Origin: an uncultured Geobacter sp.
GTDB taxonomy: Bacteria > Desulfobacterota > Desulfuromonadia > Geobacterales > DSM-12255
Assembly (NCBI GenBank): GCA_937860145.1
Contig: CALMBF010000007.1
Location: 1-41,070, forward strand
Reading direction: 5' to 3'
Length of the DNA: 41,070 nucleotides
Part shown: positions 7,484 through 31,718 of the stretch, in pieces
How the letters are laid out: every line of letters begins with the position of its first letter
How positions within the stretch are numbered: position 1 is the stretch's first letter
Made by a program: the position numbers and the translations under genes
Notes under the pieces: model-generated
Databases searched by the model: none
What the model was told of the DNA's origin: nothing
Seen by the model: only the letters and a program-made list of their open reading frames with translations

Positions 7484-8548
7484 TTATTTGGCCCTCGGGT
7501 AGGAGCCGAGCAGCTTCACGAACTGGCAGTATCCCTTGAGCTCCTCCACCGCAGCCTGGACGTTGGTATCTGAGATATGCCCCACCAGGTCGAGGAAGAA
7601 GATGTACTCCCAGGCCTTCTTCTTCATCGGCCGGGACTCGATCTTGCAGAGGTTGACCCCGCGACTGGCGAACGGCTCCAGCATCCGGTAGAGGATCCCC
7701 GGCTCGTCCTTGACGGCGAACATGAGGGAGGTCTTGTCATCGCTCCCCGCGTCGGCGATCTTCTTGCCGATCACCAGAAACCGGGTGAAGTTGTTCACCT
7801 GGTCCTCGATCCGCTCCCTCACCACCTTCAGGTCATAGACCGACGCGGCGTATTCGCTGGCAATGGCCGCGGCGGAGTAGTCCTCGCTGACGATCTGGGC
7901 CGCCAGGGTCGTGGAGGCAACGTCGACCACCGGGATGTGGGGGAGGTTGTCCTCCAGCCATTTACGGCACTGGGCCAGGGGCTGGGGGTGGGAATAGACC
8001 TTCTTGATGTCCTCCATGCGACCGGTCTTGGAGAGGAGGAAGTGGGAGACCTCCAGCAGCACCTCGGCGCTGATCTTCAGCTCGCTCTCCATGAACATGT
8101 CCAGGGTATGGGAGACGACACCCTCGGTGGAATTTTCCACCGGGACCACGCCGTAGAGGGCCCGCCCCTTCTCCACCTCTTCGAACACTGCCGGGATGGA
8201 CTTCTGGGGGACCAGCTCGGCGGCGAGGCCGAACTGCTGCATGGCCGCAAGATGGGAGAAGGTGGCCTTGGGCCCGAGGAACGCCACGCGCATGGGGGCT
8301 TCGAGGGCGAGGGAGGCGGAGATGATTTCCCGGAAGACGCTCCGCACCGCCTCGTTGGGAAACGGTCCGGGATTCGCGGCGGTCAGCCGTTCATAGATCT
8401 CCCGTTCGCGGCTCGGCACATGGAAATCACGGCTTTCGGCCTGCTTGAGGCGGCCGACCTCCATGACATAGCGGGCCCGCTCGTTGAGCAGTTCGAGAAT
8501 ACGATCGTCGATGTTGTCAATCGAATTGCGCAGGTCAAGAAGCGACAT
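7484..8548 (-). CDS. pheA: Bifunctional chorismate mutase / prephenate dehydratase
   Basis: 354-residue P-protein for phenylalanine synthesis. An AroQ-type chorismate mutase spans about residues 1-85 (LRNSIDNIDDRILELLNERA). The prephenate dehydratase domain follows (VAFLGPKATFSHLAA, VPVENSTEGVVSHTLD, NFTRFLVIG). The C-terminal ACT domain (CKIESRPMKKKAWEY, with the ESRP feedback motif) suggests phenylalanine inhibition. The ATG follows GGAGGAGTAGAAA. First gene of the pheA-tyrA-aroA-cmk-ispH-rpsA-ihfB run. Confidence 0.96.
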   Translation of the reverse strand: MSLLDLRNSIDNIDDRILELLNERARYVMEVGRLKQAESRDFHVPSREREIYERLTAANPGPFPNEAVRSVFREIISASLALEAPMRVAFLGPKATFSHLAAMQQFGLAAELVPQKSIPAVFEEVEKGRALYGVVPVENSTEGVVSHTLDMFMESELKISAEVLLEVSHFLLSKTGRMEDIKKVYSHPQPLAQCRKWLEDNLPHIPVVDVASTTLAAQIVSEDYSAAAIASEYAASVYDLKVVRERIEDQVNNFTRFLVIGKKIADAGSDDKTSLMFAVKDEPGILYRMLEPFASRGVNLCKIESRPMKKKAWEYIFFLDLVGHISDTNVQAAVEELKGYCQFVKLLGSYPRAK

Positions 8549-12709: not shown

Positions 12710-14065
12710 CTAGAGCGGCACGGCAAGATTGTACTCGACGATCTTCCGGTCGAGGGTCTTGCGGGAAATGCCGAGAATCTCGGCAGTACGGCTCTTGTGA
12801 AAATTGTTGGCAGCGAGGACCTGCCTGATGTGCTCCCGTTCGAGGGACTCGAGGGAGACGTTCGTCCCTGCCGGCACCTGGGGCTGGAGCGGCGTTGGAC
12901 CGCGCATCGGCAGCACGTCAGGGGTGATCGTTGTGCCGCGGGCGAGGATGACGGCCCTCTCCATGACGTTCTCCAGTTCCCGGGCATTCCCCGGCCAGTG
13001 GTATGTGGTGAGAAGACGTACCCCTTCGGGGGAGATGTCGGTGACCTCCTTCTTCATCCGGGAAGCGAACCGGTTAAGGAAATGCCGGGCCATGGGCTCT
13101 ATATCCTCGGGCCGCTGGCGCAGCGGCGGCAGGTTGATGGTGATGACGTTCAGACGGTAGTAGAAATCCTCCCGGAAGCGCCCCGCCTGGATCTCTTTCT
13201 CCAGGTCCTTGTTGGTGGCGGCGACGAAGCGGATATCCACCGACTTGGGGCGCGTGCTCCCCACCGGGATGAATTCCCCCTCCTGGATGACCCGCAGCAG
13301 TTTTGCCTGCACGGCCAGGCTCATGTCCCCCACCTCGTCGAGAAACAGGGTGCTGCCGTCCGCCTCGGCCAGGATACCCTTCTGGGTGGCGAAGGCGCCG
13401 GTGAAGGCCCCGCGCACATGGCCGAAGAGCTGGCTTTCCAGGAGCGTTTCGGTCAGGGCGGCACAGTTGATGGAGTAGAAGGGGGCACCGCGCCGGGGGC
13501 TGGAATGATGGACCGTCGAGGCGATAAGCTCCTTGCCGGTGCCGGACTCGCCGAGGATGAGGATGTTGCTCTCGCTGGCGGCGACCTGCAGGGTGAAATC
13601 GTACACCTCGCGGAACGTGCGGCTGCGGAAGACGAGGGAGCCGGTCGACGTGCCATGGAGCTCGTCCCTCAGCTGCCGGTTCTCCTGGAGCAGCTGCTCC
13701 CGCTCGAAAAGGTTTTCCAGGACTCCCAGGATCTTCTCCTTGGGAAACGGCTTGGTTATGTAATCGTAGGCCCCCTGCTTGATCGCCTCGACGGCCGAAT
13801 CGATGGAGCCGTAGGCGGTCATGATGATGACCGGCAGGCCGGGACGGAGCTCCTTGACCCGGCTGAACACGGCCAGGCCGTCCATGTCCGGCATCCGGAC
13901 ATCCTGCAGGAGAACGTCCCCGCCGCCACCCGTCTCCAGGCGATGGAGAAGAGCGCCGCCGGAGGTGAAGGTCTCCACGTCGTACCCCTTGCCCCCCAGC
14001 AGTTTCTGCAGATAACGAAGAATTTCCGCCTCGTCGTCACAGATGAGAATCCTCGGTTTTGCCAC
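12710..14065 (-). CDS. NtrC-family sigma-54-dependent response regulator, candidate hyb activator
   Basis: 451 residues. The receiver domain has acidic CDDE, phospho-acceptor Asp in LLQDVRMPDMDG and Lys in YITKPF. The AAA+ domain is complete: GESGTGKE Walker A, GAFTGA loop, LFLDEVGD Walker B, AATN sensor I and FREDFYYRLN arginine fingers. The C-terminal Fis-type HTH reads SRTAEILGISRKTLDRKI. The start is GTG at 14065, after GAAGGGGGA. It is transcribed away from the hyb operon, whose -24/-12 promoter lies about 150 bp off. It probably activates hyb when phosphorylated by the kinase encoded 9 bp downstream. Confidence 0.94.
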   Translation of the reverse strand: MAKPRILICDDEAEILRYLQKLLGGKGYDVETFTSGGALLHRLETGGGGDVLLQDVRMPDMDGLAVFSRVKELRPGLPVIIMTAYGSIDSAVEAIKQGAYDYITKPFPKEKILGVLENLFEREQLLQENRQLRDELHGTSTGSLVFRSRTFREVYDFTLQVAASESNILILGESGTGKELIASTVHHSSPRRGAPFYSINCAALTETLLESQLFGHVRGAFTGAFATQKGILAEADGSTLFLDEVGDMSLAVQAKLLRVIQEGEFIPVGSTRPKSVDIRFVAATNKDLEKEIQAGRFREDFYYRLNVITINLPPLRQRPEDIEPMARHFLNRFASRMKKEVTDISPEGVRLLTTYHWPGNARELENVMERAVILARGTTITPDVLPMRGPTPLQPQVPAGTNVSLESLEREHIRQVLAANNFHKSRTAEILGISRKTLDRKIVEYNLAVPL

Positions 14066-14086: not shown

Positions 14087-14138
14087 GGACAAAATGATAC
14101 ATATCAGGACAAAAGGACGCAAGACAATTTGGGACAAA
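14087..14138. promoter_or_regulatory. Repeated TTTTGTCC boxes, candidate regulator binding sites (UAS)
   Basis: GGACAAAA occurs at 14087-14094 and 14107-14114, exactly 20 bp apart, and GGACAAA again at 14132-14138. Between the first two lies the dyad TGATA-CA-TATCA (14095-14106). The boxes are about 105-160 bp upstream of the expected hyb start, a normal enhancer distance for NtrC-type activators. They also overlap the promoter of the divergent regulator, so they may serve both activation of hyb and autoregulation. Binding is inferred. Confidence 0.5.
14094..14122 (-). promoter_or_regulatory. Promoter of the response regulator-kinase operon
   Basis: TTGCGT (14122-14117) and TATCAT (14099-14094) with a 17-bp gap on the minus strand form a good sigma-70 promoter. 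The expected start is near 14087, leaving a ~22-nt leader with a ribosome site before the GTG at 14065. The GGACAAAA boxes lie in the spacer and just after the -10. Confidence 0.55.
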
Positions 14139-14216
14139 GTGGCACACACCGAAAACCATCGCGATCATTTCTCCACGATTTCAACATATTACAACATTGC
14201 AACCTATCATTAAATC

Positions 14217-14233
14217 TTGGCAAGGGTGTTGCT
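14217..14233 (+). promoter_or_regulatory. Sigma-54 (-24/-12) promoter of the hyb operon
   Basis: TTGGCAAGGGTGTTGCT matches the RpoN consensus YTGGCACG-N4-TTGCW closely. The GG (14219-14220) and GC (14231-14232) are separated by exactly 10 bases. The expected start is near 14244, giving a ~68-nt leader before hybS. I see no equally good sigma-70 promoter in this intergenic region. Confidence 0.85.
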
Positions 14234-14311
14234 GTATACGCGGCGATACTATATCTGTGCGACTGCTGCAGCACACGGAGCGGTTCGCACGTTACCATGA
14301 AAGGGAGGAAC

Positions 14312-15427
14312 ATGAAGAAAGACGACGATATTATCTGCGATGGCGTGACCCGCCGGGACTTCCTCAAGACCTGCGTGACCGTGACGGCCATGATGGGTCT
14401 CCCCTTCGCCATGCACGCGAAAATTGCCGAGGCGGTCGAAACGAACCAGAATCCCGCCGTCATCTGGCTCCATTTCCAGGAGTGCACCGGCTGTTCCGAA
14501 TCGCTCCTCCGCTCCACCCACCCCACCATCTCAACCCTCATCCTGGACATGATCTCCCTCGACTACCATGAAACCCTCATGGCGGGCGCCGGTCACCAGG
14601 CCGAGAAGTCGCTCCACGACTCCATGACGGCCAACAAGGGGAAATACATCCTGGTGGTGGAAGGAGCCATCCCGACCAAAGACAACGGCATCTACTGCAA
14701 GGTATCGGGCAAGACCTCCCTGGAGACCCTGCGCACCCTGGCCGAAGGGGCGGCAGCCATCATCCCCATCGGCACCTGCGCCAGCTACGGCGGCATCCAG
14801 TCCGTCGCCCCCAACCCGACCGGGGCCGTGGGGGTCAGGGACATCGTCAAGGACAAGCCGATCATCAACATCCCCGGCTGCCCGCCGAACCCCTACAACT
14901 TCCTCTCCACGGTGATGTACTTCCTCACCTTCAAGAAGCTTCCCGAGTTGGATACACTGGGCCGTCCCAAGTTCGCCTACGGCCGGAAGATCCACGAGCA
15001 CTGCGAGCGCCGTCCCCACTTCGACGCCGGCCGGTTCGCCCTCAAGTACGGCGATCCGACCCATGCCGAGGGGTACTGCCTCTACAAGCTCGGCTGCAAG
15101 GGACCCGAGACCTTTGCCAACTGCTCCGTGCAGCGCTTCAACGACACCGGTGTCTGGCCGGTCTCCGTCGGCCACCCCTGCATCGGTTGCACCGAACCGG
15201 ACATCCTCTTCAAGAAGGCGATTGCCGAAAAGGTCCAGATCCACCTCCCCACGCCGCCGGACACCTATGCACCGGTCAACCTGAAGGACAAGGGAAAAGG
15301 TGCCGATCCGCTCACCACCGGCGTTCTCGGCCTCGCTGCCGGCGCGGCACTCGGCGCCGGAGCCATGTTGGCGAAGAAACTCCCGAAGGACGGCGACCAC
15401 GGCGAGGAGGAGACGAAGGATGAGTAA
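14312..15427 (+). CDS. hybS: NiFe hydrogenase small subunit, Tat-exported, membrane-anchored
   Basis: 371-residue small subunit of a Hyb (group 1) uptake hydrogenase, carrying the iron-sulfur relay from the large subunit; equivalent to E. coli HybO. A twin-arginine signal (RRDFLKTCVTV) is followed by QECTGCSES for the proximal cluster, PIGTCASYGG, NIPGCPPNP and medial/distal cluster cysteines (HCERRPHF, CLYKLGCKGPETFANC, HPCIGCTEPD). The C-terminus has a glycine/alanine-rich hydrophobic helix (LGLAAGAALGAGAML) as periplasm-side membrane anchor. The ATG at 14312 follows AAAGGGAGGAAC; a second in-frame ATG 18 bases upstream is less well placed. It overlaps hybA by eight bases. Confidence 0.95.
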   Translation: MKKDDDIICDGVTRRDFLKTCVTVTAMMGLPFAMHAKIAEAVETNQNPAVIWLHFQECTGCSESLLRSTHPTISTLILDMISLDYHETLMAGAGHQAEKSLHDSMTANKGKYILVVEGAIPTKDNGIYCKVSGKTSLETLRTLAEGAAAIIPIGTCASYGGIQSVAPNPTGAVGVRDIVKDKPIINIPGCPPNPYNFLSTVMYFLTFKKLPELDTLGRPKFAYGRKIHEHCERRPHFDAGRFALKYGDPTHAEGYCLYKLGCKGPETFANCSVQRFNDTGVWPVSVGHPCIGCTEPDILFKKAIAEKVQIHLPTPPDTYAPVNLKDKGKGADPLTTGVLGLAAGAALGAGAMLAKKLPKDGDHGEEETKDE

Positions 15428-16367
15428 GCAGACACGGCGAACCTTTCTCAAGACCATCGGCCTGGGGGGCGCCACCCTGCTGGCAACCGCAGGGGGTGTC
15501 TGCCAGGCATCGGAGCAGATGGGGGTCAACAACGAGGCCCTGGGGATGCTCTACGACGCCACCATGTGCGTCGGCTGCAAGGCGTGCATGACCGCCTGCA
15601 AGCGGGTGAACGGTGACTTCGGCTCCCTCTCCTACGAGAAGGCACCCTTCGACCAGGACGGCCTCTGGGATGCCCCCCAGGATCTCTCCGGAAGCACCCG
15701 CACCCTGATCAAGCTCTACAAGGAGTCGGACAGCACCTGGTCGTACGTCAAGTACTCCTGCATGCACTGCCAGAAGCCGTCCTGCGTCTCCGTCTGCCCG
15801 GTCAGCGCCATGACCAAGGACAAACAGACCGGCATCGTCGACTACAACAAGGACACCTGTATCGGCTGCCGCTACTGCCAGGTGGGCTGCTCCTTCAACA
15901 TCCCCAAATTCCAGTGGGAGAAGACCATCCCCCAGATCGTCAAGTGCGACCTCTGCAAGAACACCAACCTGAAGGAAAAGGGGATCTGCGCCTGCGCCGA
16001 AACCTGCCCCGTTGGGGCAATCACCTTCGGCAAGCGGAAGGAACTGCTGGAAATTGCCCATACCCGCCTGAAGGAGAACCCGGGACGCTATCTTCAGCAC
16101 GTCTACGGCGAGCACGAACTGGGAGGGACCAACCACCTCTACCTGGCCGGTGTGCCGTTCAACAAGCTGGGGCTCCCCATCCTGCCGGAAAACGCTCCGG
16201 CGGAGTTCTCGGAAAAGATCCAGCACACCATCTACAAGGGGTTCGTCGCCCCGGTGGCGCTCTACAGCACCCTCTGTTTCATCGCACTGAAGAACCAGAA
16301 GAAGCAGGATACAAACGGGCACGCCGCCGCAGACGGTAACCACGGACACGGGGAGGAGCACAAGTAA
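15420..16367 (+). CDS. hybA: Hydrogenase iron-sulfur protein HybA
   Basis: 315-residue ferredoxin-like electron carrier linking the hydrogenase heterodimer to the membrane subunit HybB. A twin-arginine signal (RRTFLKTIGL) sits at the N-terminus. Four cysteine clusters follow: CVGCKACMTACKR, CMHCQKPSCVSVCPV, CIGCRYCQVGC and CDLC...CACAETCPVG, enough for four 4Fe-4S centres. A single C-terminal hydrophobic segment (FVAPVALYSTLCFIAL) would anchor it. The His-rich tail (NGHAAADGNHGHGEEHK) is unusual but may just be a linker. Start and stop overlap hybS and hybB. Confidence 0.94.
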   Translation: MSKQTRRTFLKTIGLGGATLLATAGGVCQASEQMGVNNEALGMLYDATMCVGCKACMTACKRVNGDFGSLSYEKAPFDQDGLWDAPQDLSGSTRTLIKLYKESDSTWSYVKYSCMHCQKPSCVSVCPVSAMTKDKQTGIVDYNKDTCIGCRYCQVGCSFNIPKFQWEKTIPQIVKCDLCKNTNLKEKGICACAETCPVGAITFGKRKELLEIAHTRLKENPGRYLQHVYGEHELGGTNHLYLAGVPFNKLGLPILPENAPAEFSEKIQHTIYKGFVAPVALYSTLCFIALKNQKKQDTNGHAAADGNHGHGEEHK

Positions 16368-17689
16368 TGGCCGGACATCATGACGAATTCATCCGACTGG
16401 AAGGAAAGATCTTCACCAAATCCTTCTTCGTCCTCCTTGCCCTGGTACTGATCGGCTTCTTCTTCATCGGCGTCCGCTACGTCAAGGGGATCGGCGCCGT
16501 CTCCAACATGAGCGACGGCTACCCCTGGGGGATCTGGATCGCCTACGACGTGGCCACCGGCACCGCCATCGCCTGCGGCGGCTATGCCGTGGCGATCCTG
16601 ATCTACATCCGCAACCACATGAAGTTCCACCCCCTGATCCGCTCGGCCCTCCTCACCTCCCTGTTCGGCTACGGCCTGGCAGGCTTCTCCGTCGTCGTCG
16701 ACCTGGGACGCTACTGGAACTCCTACGGCTTCTTCATCCCCTCCCGCTGGCAGATCAACTCCGCCATGTTCGAGGTCGCCCTCTGCGTCATGACCTACAC
16801 CCTGGTGCTGGTCATCGAGTTCCTGCCGGCGGTTCTCTGGTCCCTGGAGAACAGCCGCGGGGTCACCATCCGCAAGGTGGCGGACTGGCTCCACCCCCGC
16901 CTGGTGCCCGACGAGGACAAGCTGGCCTCCGGCCTGGAATGGGTCCGCTCCTCCGCAGCATGGCTCCGTCCCCGCCTGGACAAGGTGCTGGTCTTCTTCA
17001 TCGTCCTGGGGATCACCCTGCCGACCATGCATCAGTCGTCCCTCGGGTCGCTGCTACTGATCGCCGCCACCAAGCTCAACCCCCTGTGGCACACCGGCTT
17101 CCTGCCGCTTCTGTTCCTGATCAACTGCATCTACATCGGCTATGCCATCGTCATCCTGGAGTCGATCATCTCCGCCTCGGCCTTCAAGCGCCCCATCGAG
17201 CTGAAGGAGCTCTCCGGACTCTCCAACATCATCCCCTGGCTCACCGTCATCTGGCTCTGCGTCAGAGTCGGGGACCTGGCCTACCGGGGACAGATCGGCA
17301 ACGCGCTCAAGTTTGACTTCTACTCCTGCTTCTTCCTCCTGGAGTTCCTGCTGATCGCCGTCGGCTCCATGATCCTCTTCAGCCCCCGCATGCGCCGCTC
17401 CCCCCGCTGGCTCTTCATCACCGCCAGCATGATGGTTCTCGGCGGAGCTCTCTACCGTTTCAACGTCTACCTGATCGGCTTCAACCCGGGCCAGGGGTGG
17501 CACTACTTCCCTTCCTTCGCCGAACTGATGATCACCGTCGGGGTCATCGCCCTGGAACTCCTGGGGTACCAGGTGCTGGTGAAACTCTTCCCGGTCCTGC
17601 CCAATCCCAAGCATGCGGCCCACGGCGGCAACGGTTCATCACAGGCACACGCCGATATTCCCCACGGTGCGGTGCACGCGGGGAAATAG
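16367..17689 (+). CDS. hybB: Hydrogenase integral membrane subunit HybB (NrfD/PsrC family)
   Basis: 440-residue polytopic membrane protein, about ten TM helices, of the NrfD/PsrC/HybB family. It passes electrons from HybA to the quinone pool. Conserved segments include DGYPWGIWIAYDVATGTAIACGG near residues 45-70, DLGRYWNSYGFF, and LPTMHQSSLGS. Its ATG shares one base with the hybA stop. A 208-bp gap with a large inverted repeat separates it from hybL. Confidence 0.94.
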   Translation: MAGHHDEFIRLEGKIFTKSFFVLLALVLIGFFFIGVRYVKGIGAVSNMSDGYPWGIWIAYDVATGTAIACGGYAVAILIYIRNHMKFHPLIRSALLTSLFGYGLAGFSVVVDLGRYWNSYGFFIPSRWQINSAMFEVALCVMTYTLVLVIEFLPAVLWSLENSRGVTIRKVADWLHPRLVPDEDKLASGLEWVRSSAAWLRPRLDKVLVFFIVLGITLPTMHQSSLGSLLLIAATKLNPLWHTGFLPLLFLINCIYIGYAIVILESIISASAFKRPIELKELSGLSNIIPWLTVIWLCVRVGDLAYRGQIGNALKFDFYSCFFLLEFLLIAVGSMILFSPRMRRSPRWLFITASMMVLGGALYRFNVYLIGFNPGQGWHYFPSFAELMITVGVIALELLGYQVLVKLFPVLPNPKHAAHGGNGSSQAHADIPHGAVHAGK

Positions 17690-17897: not shown

Positions 17898-19580
17898 ATG
17901 TCCAAACGAATCACCCTGGATCCCATCACCCGTATCGAGGGTCACCTGCGCATCGACGTGGAAGTAAGCGGCGGCAAGGTTGCCAAGGCCTGGTCCTCGG
18001 CCCAGATGTGGCGCGGCATCGAGACCATCCTCAAGGGGAAAGACCCCCAGGACGCCTGGTCCCTGGCCCAGCGCTTTTGCGGCGTCTGCACCACGGTCCA
18101 CGCCATCTCCTCCATCCGTTCGGTGGAGAACGCCCTCAAGGTCGAGGTACCTCTCAACGCCCAGTACATCAGGAACATCATGATCGCCCAGCACTCGGTG
18201 CAGGACCACATCGTCCACTTCTACCACCTCTCCGCCCTGGACTGGGTGGACATCGTCTCAGCCCTCAAGGCCGACCCGAAGAAGGCCGCCAGCATCGCCC
18301 AGGGCATCTCCGACTGGCCGGGCAACTCGGAAAAGGAGTTCAAGGCGGTCCAGGACAAGCTGAAGGCCTTCGTCGCCGGCGGCAAGCTGGGGATCTTCGC
18401 CTCCGGCTACTGGGGCCACCCGGCCATGAAGCTGCCGCCGGAGATCAACCTCATCGCCACGGCCCACTACCTGAAGGCCCTGGACTACCAGCGCAAGGCG
18501 GCCCAGGCCGTCGCCATCCTCGGCGGCAAGAACCCCCACATCCAGAACCTGGTGGTGGGGGGGGTCGCCACGGCGGTCAACCTGGAGAACATGACCACCC
18601 TGAACATGGAGCGGATCGCCTACCTGCGCACCCTCATGGAGGAGACCCGGGATTTCGTGCAGAAGGTCTACTACCCTGACATGGTCGCCATCGCCTCCGC
18701 CTACAAGGAGTGGTTCAAGTACGGCGCCGGGGTCACCAACTACCTGGCGGTCCCCGAATTCCCCGAGGATACGAAGAACACCCAGTTCGGCCTCAGCGGC
18801 GGGGTCTTCTTTGGCGGCGATCTGAAGACCTTCAAGCCGATCACCACCCACCAGGACCAGTACCTGATCAACAACATCAGCGAGGGGGTGGCCCACGCCT
18901 GGTACGAAGGCTCCGCAACTCACCACCCCTGGGAAGGCGAGACCAAGCCGGAGTACACCGATTTCCAGGAGAACGGGAAGTACAGCTGGTGCAAATCCCC
19001 CCGCTTCGACGGGAAACCGGTCCAGGTCGGCCCGCCGGCCCAGCTCTTCGCCGCCTACGCCACCGGCAACCCCAGGGTGAAGAAACTCGTGGACGCCACC
19101 TGCCAGAAGATCGGCGTCGGGGTCAAGGACCTCCACTCCACCATGGGGCGCCTGGGCGCCCGTGCCATCCGGGCCCACCTCCTGGCCGACATGTCCCTGG
19201 ACTACCTGGACAAGCTGGTCGCCAACCTGGGCAAGGGTGACAAGACCTACGCCAACCACACCGAGATCCCCAAGGGCGAGTACAAGGGGGTCGGCTTCCA
19301 CGAGGCGCCCCGGGGCACCCTCTCCCACTGGATGGTCATCGAGGACAGGAAGATCAAGAACTACCAGGCCGTCGTCCCCTCCACCTGGAACGCCTCCCCC
19401 CGGGACGAGAAGGGGAACATGGGCCCCTACGAGGCATCACTGATCGGCAACCCGGTGGCCCAGGAAGAAAAGCCGTTGGAGGTGCTCCGGACGATCCACT
19501 CCTTTGATCCGTGTATCGCCTGTGCGGTGCATACCATCGACCCGGAGGGGAAGGAAATTACGAAGGTCAAAGTTCTGTAG
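17898..19580 (+). CDS. hybL: NiFe hydrogenase large (catalytic) subunit
   Basis: 560-residue large subunit holding the Ni-Fe active site that oxidises H2; equivalent to E. coli HybC. The N-terminal L1 motif is RFCGVC (Cys61, Cys64) and the C-terminal L2 motif is DPCIACAVH (Cys539, Cys542, His545), giving all four Ni/Fe ligands. The 15 residues after His545 are the C-terminal extension normally cut off after nickel insertion. It has no signal of its own and would be exported with the Tat-tagged small subunit. ATG follows ACAGGAGAACATAC. Confidence 0.96.
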   Translation: MSKRITLDPITRIEGHLRIDVEVSGGKVAKAWSSAQMWRGIETILKGKDPQDAWSLAQRFCGVCTTVHAISSIRSVENALKVEVPLNAQYIRNIMIAQHSVQDHIVHFYHLSALDWVDIVSALKADPKKAASIAQGISDWPGNSEKEFKAVQDKLKAFVAGGKLGIFASGYWGHPAMKLPPEINLIATAHYLKALDYQRKAAQAVAILGGKNPHIQNLVVGGVATAVNLENMTTLNMERIAYLRTLMEETRDFVQKVYYPDMVAIASAYKEWFKYGAGVTNYLAVPEFPEDTKNTQFGLSGGVFFGGDLKTFKPITTHQDQYLINNISEGVAHAWYEGSATHHPWEGETKPEYTDFQENGKYSWCKSPRFDGKPVQVGPPAQLFAAYATGNPRVKKLVDATCQKIGVGVKDLHSTMGRLGARAIRAHLLADMSLDYLDKLVANLGKGDKTYANHTEIPKGEYKGVGFHEAPRGTLSHWMVIEDRKIKNYQAVVPSTWNASPRDEKGNMGPYEASLIGNPVAQEEKPLEVLRTIHSFDPCIACAVHTIDPEGKEITKVKVL

Positions 19581-19732: not shown

Positions 19733-20218
19733 ATGAAGACATTGATTTTTGGAGCCGGCAACCTGCTCCTCGGCGACGAGGGGTTCGGGGTCCACGCCAT
19801 CAGGCACCTGGAGGCGAACTACGACTTCCCCGAGGAGGTGGAGCTGTACGACGGCGGCACCCTGGGGATCATGGTGACCCACAAGTTCGAGGAGGCGGAG
19901 CGGATCTACATCCTGGATGTCATCGAGGGACAGGGTGCGCCGGGGGAACTGCGCCGTTACGAGAAGGAGGAGATCATGCTGGGGGGGATCCCGGTGAAGC
20001 TCTCCCCCCACCAGATCGGCATTCAGGAGACCCTGCTGATGAGCGAGATCCGGGGGTTCTGCCCGGAGAAGGTCACCCTCCTGGGGGTCCTCCCCGCCTC
20101 CCTGGACGCCAGCGACCAGCTCTCGCCGGTCGTCCGGCCGAAGCTTGACGACGTTGCCGGGATCATCATCGACGAACTCGCAGCGGACGGAGTTGCCGTA
20201 CTAAAAAAAGCCGCCTGA
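19733..20218 (+). CDS. hybP: Hydrogenase maturation endopeptidase (HybD family)
   Basis: 161-residue nickel-dependent checking protease that removes the C-terminal tail of the large subunit. The N-terminal FGAGNLLLGDEGFGVHA is the family signature. Glu16, Asp62 and His93 fall at the same residue numbers as the nickel ligands of E. coli HybD. Directly downstream of the palindromic element and hybL, its probable substrate gene. ATG follows AAGGGAAGACATT. Called HybP in Geobacter and HybD in E. coli. Confidence 0.93.
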   Translation: MKTLIFGAGNLLLGDEGFGVHAIRHLEANYDFPEEVELYDGGTLGIMVTHKFEEAERIYILDVIEGQGAPGELRRYEKEEIMLGGIPVKLSPHQIGIQETLLMSEIRGFCPEKVTLLGVLPASLDASDQLSPVVRPKLDDVAGIIIDELAADGVAVLKKAA

Positions 20219-30347: not shown

Positions 30348-31718
30348 TTACCCCCCCCTGCTCCTCATGTCGATCCCGTAGCTCCTGATCTTGCGGTGCA
30401 GGTTGCTCCGCTCCAGCTCGATGGCCTCGGCGGTACGGGTAATGTTCCAGTCGTTCTCGTCGAGCTTCTGGATGATGAACTCCCGCTCGAACTCTTCCCG
30501 GGCCTCCCGGAGGGAGTGCACCTCAAGGGCATGGTCGAGCTTGTGGGGGGAGCGGATCTCCATGATGGCGTCAGGTAACTGGTCTACGGTTATGGTCCTG
30601 CCGGGGGACATGATGACCAGGCGTTCCATGATGTTCTTCAACTCCCTGATGTTGCCGGGCCAGTCGTAGCTCTGCATCAGCTCGACGGCTTCGGGGTGGA
30701 TCGTCTTCCGCTCCCGCATCTCCCTGAGGCAGAACTGTTCGAGAAAATGCTCGATGAGGGCGGGGATATCCTCGCGCCGTTCCCTCAGGGGAAGAAGGTC
30801 GAAAGGGACGACATTGAGCATGTAGTAGAGCTGTTCACTGAACGTCCCGGCCTTCACCGCCTCCTCCAGGGGGAAACTGCTCGATGCCATGATCCTCACG
30901 TCGACGTCGATGCTCCGCCCCCCTCCGACCCGCTCGAAATGGTGCTGCTCGATCACGCGGAGGAGCTTTGCCTGGCAGGCCAGGGGCATTTCCCGTATCT
31001 CGCCCAGGAACAGTGAACCGCCGTCAGCCAGCTCCAGACGCCCCTTCCGCTGGGATGTGGCTCCGGGGATGGCCCCCTTTTCGTAGCCGAACAACTCCGC
31101 CTCGATCAGCTCCTCGGGGATTGCCGCGCAGTTGATGGTGACGAACGGCTTGTCGCTCCGTGAACTGAAGCGGTGCACCATGTGGGCAACCGATTCCTTG
31201 CCGGTGCCGCTGTCGCCGTTGATCAGGATGGAGGCGCTGGTCGGGGCCACGATACGGATCTGTTCCCGCAGCAGCCGCGCCGGTTCCGAATCCCCCACCA
31301 TCTCGAAACGCTCCTGGATCATGCCGCGCAGTGAGGCATTCTCCTCTTTCAGCCGGCTCATGCCGATGGCGTTGTGGACGATCACCAGCACCTTCTCCAG
31401 GGAGAGGGGCTTTTCGATGAAGTCGAAGGCGCCCAGCTTGGTCGCCCTGACGGCCGTCTCGATGGTGCCATGGCCGGAGATCATGACCACCGGCAGGTCG
31501 GGATAGAGCTCCTTCAACCGCTGCAGCGTCTCCAGGCCGTCCAGCCTCGGCATCCAGATATCGAGCAGCACCAGGTCGGGGAGCTCTTTCTGCAGCGTTG
31601 CCAGGGCATCGAGACCGTCATTCGCCGTGGTCACCCGGTACCCTTCGTCCTCCAGGATCCCCTGGAGCGCCATGCGGATGCTCTCTTCGTCGTCTACGAC
31701 AAGGATGGTCGGCGTCAT
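30348..31718 (-). CDS. NtrC-type response regulator with degenerate AAA+ domain
   Basis: 456 residues. The receiver is intact (VDDEE, Asp53 in LLDIWMP, Lys103 in IEKPL), as are Walker A GDSGTGKE (168-175) and the C-terminal HTH (TRTAEAIELERSNLHRKI). The sigma-54 contact loop is GAIPGA (215-220) instead of GAFTGA. Walker B reads LFLGE, with Gly239 for the conserved Asp. Sensor I Asn is Ser281. The arginine-finger segment FREDLYYRL reads FSEQLYYML (Ser294, Met300). It is unlikely to remodel sigma-54 polymerase and may bind DNA as a repressor or partner. Its ATG overlaps the aminotransferase stop. No kinase is adjacent. Confidence 0.92.
   Translation of the reverse strand: MTPTILVVDDEESIRMALQGILEDEGYRVTTANDGLDALATLQKELPDLVLLDIWMPRLDGLETLQRLKELYPDLPVVMISGHGTIETAVRATKLGAFDFIEKPLSLEKVLVIVHNAIGMSRLKEENASLRGMIQERFEMVGDSEPARLLREQIRIVAPTSASILINGDSGTGKESVAHMVHRFSSRSDKPFVTINCAAIPEELIEAELFGYEKGAIPGATSQRKGRLELADGGSLFLGEIREMPLACQAKLLRVIEQHHFERVGGGRSIDVDVRIMASSSFPLEEAVKAGTFSEQLYYMLNVVPFDLLPLRERREDIPALIEHFLEQFCLREMRERKTIHPEAVELMQSYDWPGNIRELKNIMERLVIMSPGRTITVDQLPDAIMEIRSPHKLDHALEVHSLREAREEFEREFIIQKLDENDWNITRTAEAIELERSNLHRKIRSYGIDMRSRGG

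Follow-up and report, generated by a model that had tools for sequence, protein, structure and literature searches.

The histidine kinase and NtrC-type regulator encoded divergently from the hyb operon very probably activate that operon through a tandem pair of 14-bp units upstream of a sigma-54 promoter of hybS. We put the probability of this reading, which is built on sequence comparison, at roughly 0.87. The DNA analysed, 41,070 nucleotides in all and hereafter the window, makes up contig C7 in a draft genome of 3.96 Mb; the nearest named hyb loci are those of an 'uncultured Geobacter' (HybS identity 92%) and of a Geobacteraceae metagenome genome (90%). The features of the locus are collected in Table 1.

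Table 1. Genes and DNA elements of the hyb locus, in window coordinates.
Feature	Position	Strand	Remarks
Histidine kinase, 677 aa	10667..12700	-	periplasmic Cache, HAMP, HisKA, HATPase_c
NtrC-type response regulator	12710..14065	-	GTG start at 14065, 451 aa
Enhancer unit 1 (putative), GACAAAATGATACA	14088..14101	+	24.0 bits; 131 bp before -24 GG
Enhancer unit 2 (putative), GACAAAAGGACGCA	14108..14121	+	18.7 bits; offset of 20 bp from unit 1
Weak third unit-like sequence, GACAAAGTGGCACA (octamer box GGACAAAG)	14133..14146	+	6.7 bits
IHF-like site, TTTCAACATATTA	14179..14191	+	one mismatch to WATCAANNNNTTR; tentative
Sigma-54 -24/-12 promoter of hybS, TGGCAAGGGTGTTGCT	14218..14233	+	exact consensus match
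GTATAC palindrome	14234..14239	+	directly 3' of promoter
hybS, NiFe hydrogenase small subunit	14312..15427	+	twin-arginine-like leader
hybA, iron-sulfur subunit	15300..16367	+	
hybB, NrfD-type membrane subunit	16367..17689	+	
hybL, NiFe hydrogenase large subunit	17898..19580	+	
Hydrogenase maturation protease	19733..20218	+	

The start codons of the divergent regulator and hybS genes are separated by 246 bp, and the hybS ATG at 14312 is preceded by GGGAGG. Kinase and regulator probably form one operon, because the kinase gene lies only 9 bp behind the regulator gene. In the regulator, the receiver (PF00072), sigma-54 AAA+ (PF00158) and Fis-type helix–turn–helix (PF02954) domains all score above cut-off and a GAFTGA sigma-54 contact loop can be read in the translation, which bears out the complete sigma-54 activator domain that an earlier, sequence-only reading of this DNA had ascribed to it. 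A second sigma-54 activator gene lies within the window (30348-31718, minus strand). PF00374 has six matches in the genome, three of them full-length, counted without sorting by hydrogenase type.

The -24/-12 promoter with exact spacing that had been proposed before hybS was recovered: within the window TGGCANGNNNNTTGCW is matched exactly by TGGCAAGGGTGTTGCT alone, which has GG at 14219-14220, GC at 14231-14232 and 10 bp between them. From the position of the -12 GC, transcription of hybS is predicted to start near 14244. Within the order, 79 of 81 hyb loci have a sigma-54 promoter scoring at least 9 of 12.

Upstream of the promoter, two GGACAAAA octamers (14087-14094 and 14107-14114) stand exactly 20 bp apart, as the sequence-only reading had noted. 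We rejected the octamer by itself as evidence, its frequency being near chance (four in the window against 0.99 expected, with 3 of 100 shuffles reaching four). Its spacing stood, and the real element is a tandem pair, at 14088-14122, of the 14-bp unit GACAAAANGATACA, of which the octamer is the core and in which CA at positions 3-4 and 13-14 are strongest. No other copy of the pair occurs in the genome when up to three mismatches are allowed, and a reversed control pattern had no match. A third box had also been proposed. In the 22 loci that share the 131-bp spacing its columns show no conservation, and G050 is the sole one of them to carry a unit there, a weak one of 6.0 bits; with its low score, the third box was dropped from the core element.

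A search for boxes upstream of hyb in related genomes, suggested with the original proposal, found the pair almost throughout. Of the 141 genomes of the order, 82 encode a HybS of this type at E up to 1e-145, and 81 upstream regions were compared, that of G026 being left out as cut by a contig end. A unit pair scoring above 15 bits lies upstream of the -24 element in 78 of the 81; none of 342 shuffled regulator upstream regions reaches 15 bits. G016 has no unit pair in the 279 bp available upstream, G055 has neither sigma-54 promoter nor unit pair at hyb, and in G021 the box is present with a poor -12 element and is hence unscored. Seventy-five pairs point towards hyb and three (g6) are reversed. 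At L191, L195 and L130 (G013-G015) a reversed unit pair stands before hyb with no directly divergent regulator. The period of the units is 20 bp in 59 of the 78 pairs and 19, 21 or 23 bp in the others.

The distances between box and promoter form a helical-turn ladder. Counted from where unit 1 begins up to the -24 GG they are 131 bp (25 loci), 141 (15), 110 (nine), 132 (five), 130 and 142 (three each), 122, 129 and 133 (two each), and 118, 121, 123, 128, 135, 140, 143, 271 and 345 (one each). Seventy of the 75 forward pairs thus stand at 110, 121-123, 129-133 or 140-143 bp, the exceptions being G023 (271 bp), G071 (345, with a second unit pair at 133), G042 (118), G087 (128) and G069 (135). 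The best period, taken over 19 genus-level values below 200 bp with 271 and 345 dropped, is 10.5 bp (R 0.775), and 0 of 20,000 uniform draws were as high, a p-value that is too small because loci and genera are related by descent and kinship was left uncorrected. Of the 25 loci with 131 bp, 22 are non-redundant; across these, identity is 90% in the units and 36% in the linker, which argues that length has been kept without sequence.

The position of the box is tied to the hyb promoter and not to the start of the regulator. At the 50 loci with a divergent regulator, the quartiles of the box-to-promoter distance are 130-131.75 bp, whereas those from regulator start to box are 30-111 bp, with a range of 10-1133 bp. 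The idea that the box occurs only where the regulator adjoins was overturned by the unit scan: units are kept before hyb genes that have no adjoining regulator, for example in the g12 genomes, G050, G119 and G121. In the g12 genomes checked, a regulator adjoins fdn, hyb has no directly divergent one, and the hyb units are retained. The box is also present before a second hydrogenase type (54-61% identical) in five genomes, with a sigma-54 site at 130 and 132 bp in two of them; at the second-type hyb of G004, G005 and G053 no good sigma-54 site was found at the usual box distance.

Scanning the order yielded 83 box places in 79 of the 141 genomes, with no match to the reversed control pattern. 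Fifty-five are at hyb, 18 at fdn, five at the second hyb type and four at a regulator only, and one (G075:C49) is unexplained. At the fdn place of G055 a NuoE-like gene comes first. Two regulator-only places, G005:C134 and G026:C25, are on contigs that break off 321 and 421 bp beyond the box yet still show a sigma-54 site at 141 and 142 bp, respectively. A blind scan outside the order found the box pattern, at up to two mismatches, in five of 136 genomes, and all five have the same module: regulator, box, sigma-54 promoter at 109-111 bp, hybS. Together with the constant distance between box and promoter, this strongly favours the proposal that the pair activates hyb.

The genome contains a second regulator/kinase pair, on contig C28, whose regulator and kinase share 63% and 46% identity with those at hyb; it diverges from a gene for formate dehydrogenase with a sigma-54 promoter; in the fdnG query, taken from G027, an in-frame TGA was read as selenocysteine. 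In G. sulfurreducens, an RpoN-type promoter at fdnG was placed by primer extension, as described in the accessible part of that study (PMC2725144). At C28 the site keeps the 14+6 geometry with a different core, GACAGTTTTACACA-N6-GTCAAATCTGCACA, and this core recurs with small changes in G001 and G071. The C28, G001 and G071 regulators carry a RRTLDRR helix, most others having RKTLDRK, and face a core of the GACAGTTTT type; because these three regulators are one clade, the change of helix and core counts as one event. Three RRTLDRK regulators face GTCAAAATGTTACA, as does L154 with RKTLDRK. A general link between helix and core thus did not emerge, only the RRTLDRR clade being clearly different. 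Common-type fdn boxes lie mostly at 140-142 bp (156 in G052, 163 in G051). In a FastTree phylogeny of 90 regulators, in which the ten rows labelled 'none' include contig ends and short loci, the fdn label needs six changes, at least four of them on supported branches, and the hyb label at least ten; the fdn changes indicate that partners were exchanged. Besides the upstream pair, three genomes have a single unit just downstream of the fdn promoter, at L250 and L261 (GACAGTTTTGCACAA) and, as the variant GACAATTTTGCACAA, at L249; it could serve feedback. At L205, L208 and L214 (G134, G138 and G137) there is one stop inside the regulator match in each genome.

The regulator probably also controls its own transcription, to judge from the DNA upstream of 11 regulator genes with no hyb or fdn neighbour seen, for several of which the other side is incompletely annotated. 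Five have the full pair (L243, L245, L258 and L273 at 40-55 bp, L275 at 197 bp) and in four the first unit alone is intact and the second is degenerate (L187, viewed over 1.5 kb only, L256, L260 and L276, at 23-68 bp). Nothing was found upstream of L278, nor of L262, where the sequence ends after 312 bp at a contig end. The self-control put forward by the sequence-only reading is thus supported indirectly, nine of the 11 genes keeping at least one unit.

Two other explanations of the repeat have to be weighed. It might mainly be the regulator's sigma-70 core promoter, with the nearness of hyb incidental. An overlapping sigma-70 promoter had indeed been claimed here; the promoter scan found none at the repeat on the regulator strand, the best minus-strand reading, TTGCGT-17-TATCAT, having 8 of 12 matches. 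That reading and the units upstream of regulators with no seen hyb or fdn neighbour are what such an explanation can call on, but against it stand the constant distance to the hyb promoter, the variable distance to the regulator start, and the box at hyb promoters without an adjacent regulator, as also at the second hyb operon of G004, and we regard it as very improbable. We likewise give little credence to binding of the units by another sigma-54 activator, or by a DNA-bending protein, in place of the neighbouring regulator. The 26 nearly full-length sigma-54 activator domains counted in the whole genome do provide other candidates for hyb, and boxes also stand at hyb promoters distant from regulator genes; nevertheless, by our own classing 82 of the 83 box places in the order, and all five outside it, adjoin hyb, fdn or a regulator of this type, and an altered recognition helix goes with an altered core in the one clade of three genomes.

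Two further elements lie near the promoter. GTATAC follows directly in 57 of the 79 hyb promoters of the order and is absent from this position at the five hyb loci outside it; in this genome, the exact promoter with GTATAC occurs only at hyb and fdn (G000:C28:20951-20972). GTATAC is perhaps the operator of a second regulator; no support was found for it as an HgtR operator. A one-mismatch promoter of the GTATAC type precedes a 61-aa Cys-rich ORF at L272 (G000:C79, about 7815-8118, minus strand), a possible third member of the regulon. In the linker, a site with at most one mismatch to WATCAANNNNTTR, which we take to be the IHF consensus, occurs at 19 of 73 loci against 7.8 ± 2.6 (maximum 15) in 200 shuffles, an enrichment that is weak given mononucleotide shuffles and related sequences.

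The kinase of the window has no PAS domain. Among PDB sequences, a sensor profile made from ten kinases matched only 8py0 (E 3e-11) and 8py1 (4e-10), chemoreceptor ligand domains that are presumably formate complexes; a literature search on the two codes returned nothing relevant. The kinase contains a triad, R250, T253 and T266, with the spacing R-x2-T-x12-T that is also found in both the 8py0 and 8py1 chains. As R-x2-T-x12-T/S it occurs in 32 of 34 long kinases (final Thr in 27, final Ser in five), the exceptions being L016, with Ser for the first Thr, and L029, which is 34% identical and probably no ortholog. In the genome's third sCache_3_3 protein, that domain is without the triad. In the structure model of the kinase (pLDDT 69), region 230-272, which holds the triad, is below 50, and the distal half of the sensor resembles those of the citrate/C4-acid sensors CitA and DcuS (Z about 15-18). 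The spacing is that of PacF, in which R142, T145 and T158 affect formate binding (PMC12501870, accessible part); in Atu0526, Ala in place of Arg raised affinity and abolished chemotaxis (PMC8698456, accessible part). Ten short kinases, leaving aside an eleventh, L174, whose locus is cut, have no sensor region; Pfam was run on three of the short kinases. These ten (L015, L018, L021-L026, L030 and L262; about 390-415 aa) have lost the periplasmic Cache with the regulator kept, and the first nine, all but L262, are hyb-linked and keep the box. Having lost the Cache, they must respond to a different signal or to none.

We consider a small carboxylate the most likely signal, with formate the best candidate; formate itself as the ligand is a tentative assignment, at somewhat under an even chance. 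The close relatives of the pair that adjoin a formate enzyme may point the same way. In the part of the G. sulfurreducens proteome study available (PMC7894505), the level of HybL on formate exceeded that on hydrogen 4.7-fold and that on acetate 25.6-fold and was 0.7-fold that on the mixture, a HybL result that its authors call unexpected; FdnH was 1.3-fold higher on formate, but FdnG was 5.3-fold more abundant with hydrogen than with formate, and this last value weakens formate as the signal. By analogy, with the module not established in that species, these data would fit formate for Hyb and are mixed for Fdn. Nearly an even chance should be allowed for the kinase sensing hydrogen, redox state or another carboxylate instead: hydrogen is the substrate of hyb and, as described in the same source, a cue in other Geobacter regulation through HgtR, the FdnG values lean towards it, and the likeness to CitA and DcuS would suit another acid. 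The periplasmic Cache sensor without PAS, its profile matches confined to 8py0 and 8py1, and the spacing of the formate receptor in nearly all long kinases speak against these choices.

We infer the following mechanism for activation of hyb by the pair. The periplasmic Cache domain of the kinase would sense a small carboxylate, and the phosphorylated regulator would then bind the tandem units at 14088-14121. DNA looping, perhaps aided by IHF, would bring it to sigma-54 polymerase at 14218-14233, where ATP hydrolysis by the regulator would open the hybS promoter. Self-control would probably act through the tandem units too, or through a copy of them next to the regulator gene.

In having a receiver, an AAA+ domain, a Fis-type helix–turn–helix and GAFTGA, the regulator resembles NtrC, ZraR, AtoC and DctD, and the tandem sites 110-160 bp upstream of the start and the -24/-12 promoter are likewise those of NtrC-family systems. 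In contrast to that family, the units here are direct repeats, most of them with a 20-bp period; their CA steps lie at intervals of 10 bp, and the eye finds no clear palindrome. The regulator falls below the cut-off of each of the best 25 of 109 NCBIfam models, and the target, unlike those of the four named regulators, is a respiratory hydrogenase. Among sigma-54 systems it is commonplace for a divergent activator to have its enhancer 110-160 bp upstream, and we therefore do not retain the description of this switch as 'unusually compact'. NtrC-type control of uptake hydrogenase is known from the HoxA/HupR activators with the HoxJ/HupT kinases, which are PAS-type and have no periplasmic sensor; with its periplasmic Cache and no PAS, the kinase here falls outside that type. 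The fdnG gene of G. sulfurreducens (GSU0777; PMC2725144) similarly has a sigma-54 promoter before a selenocysteine formate dehydrogenase; the accessible part of that study names no regulator, and here the twin module would drive hyb. The Arg and two Thr, at PacF spacing, are shared with the Cache chemoreceptors PacF (PMC12501870) and Atu0526 (PMC8698456), but the protein is a kinase, not a chemoreceptor, and its triad is membrane-proximal, whereas PacF, in the part of its study available, binds at the distal module.

In the open-access literature searched, no regulator is named for the Geobacter-type respiratory hydrogenase or for the RpoN-type fdn promoter. We conclude that the mechanism is of the ordinary sigma-54 kind and that it is put here to a widely conserved use, of which that literature yielded no earlier report. 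A candidate regulator can now be named together with a predicted site, target promoters and a testable ligand, and the spacing ladder is a natural data set on the helical phasing of enhancer and promoter. It is conceivable, though we think it unlikely, that one ancestral formate-sensing pair ran both the hydrogenase and fdn, that it was duplicated and exchanged partners repeatedly, and that the uptake hydrogenase of this class is commanded by formate and not by hydrogen. If true, there would be separate hyb and fdn copies with diverged codes in some lineages, this one included, and one regulator for both in others, and the unexpected abundance of Hyb on formate in G. sulfurreducens would be explained. 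Between anaerobes, electrons are carried mainly by hydrogen and formate, and a formate-sensing switch on a hydrogenase, if true, would tie the use of the two together.
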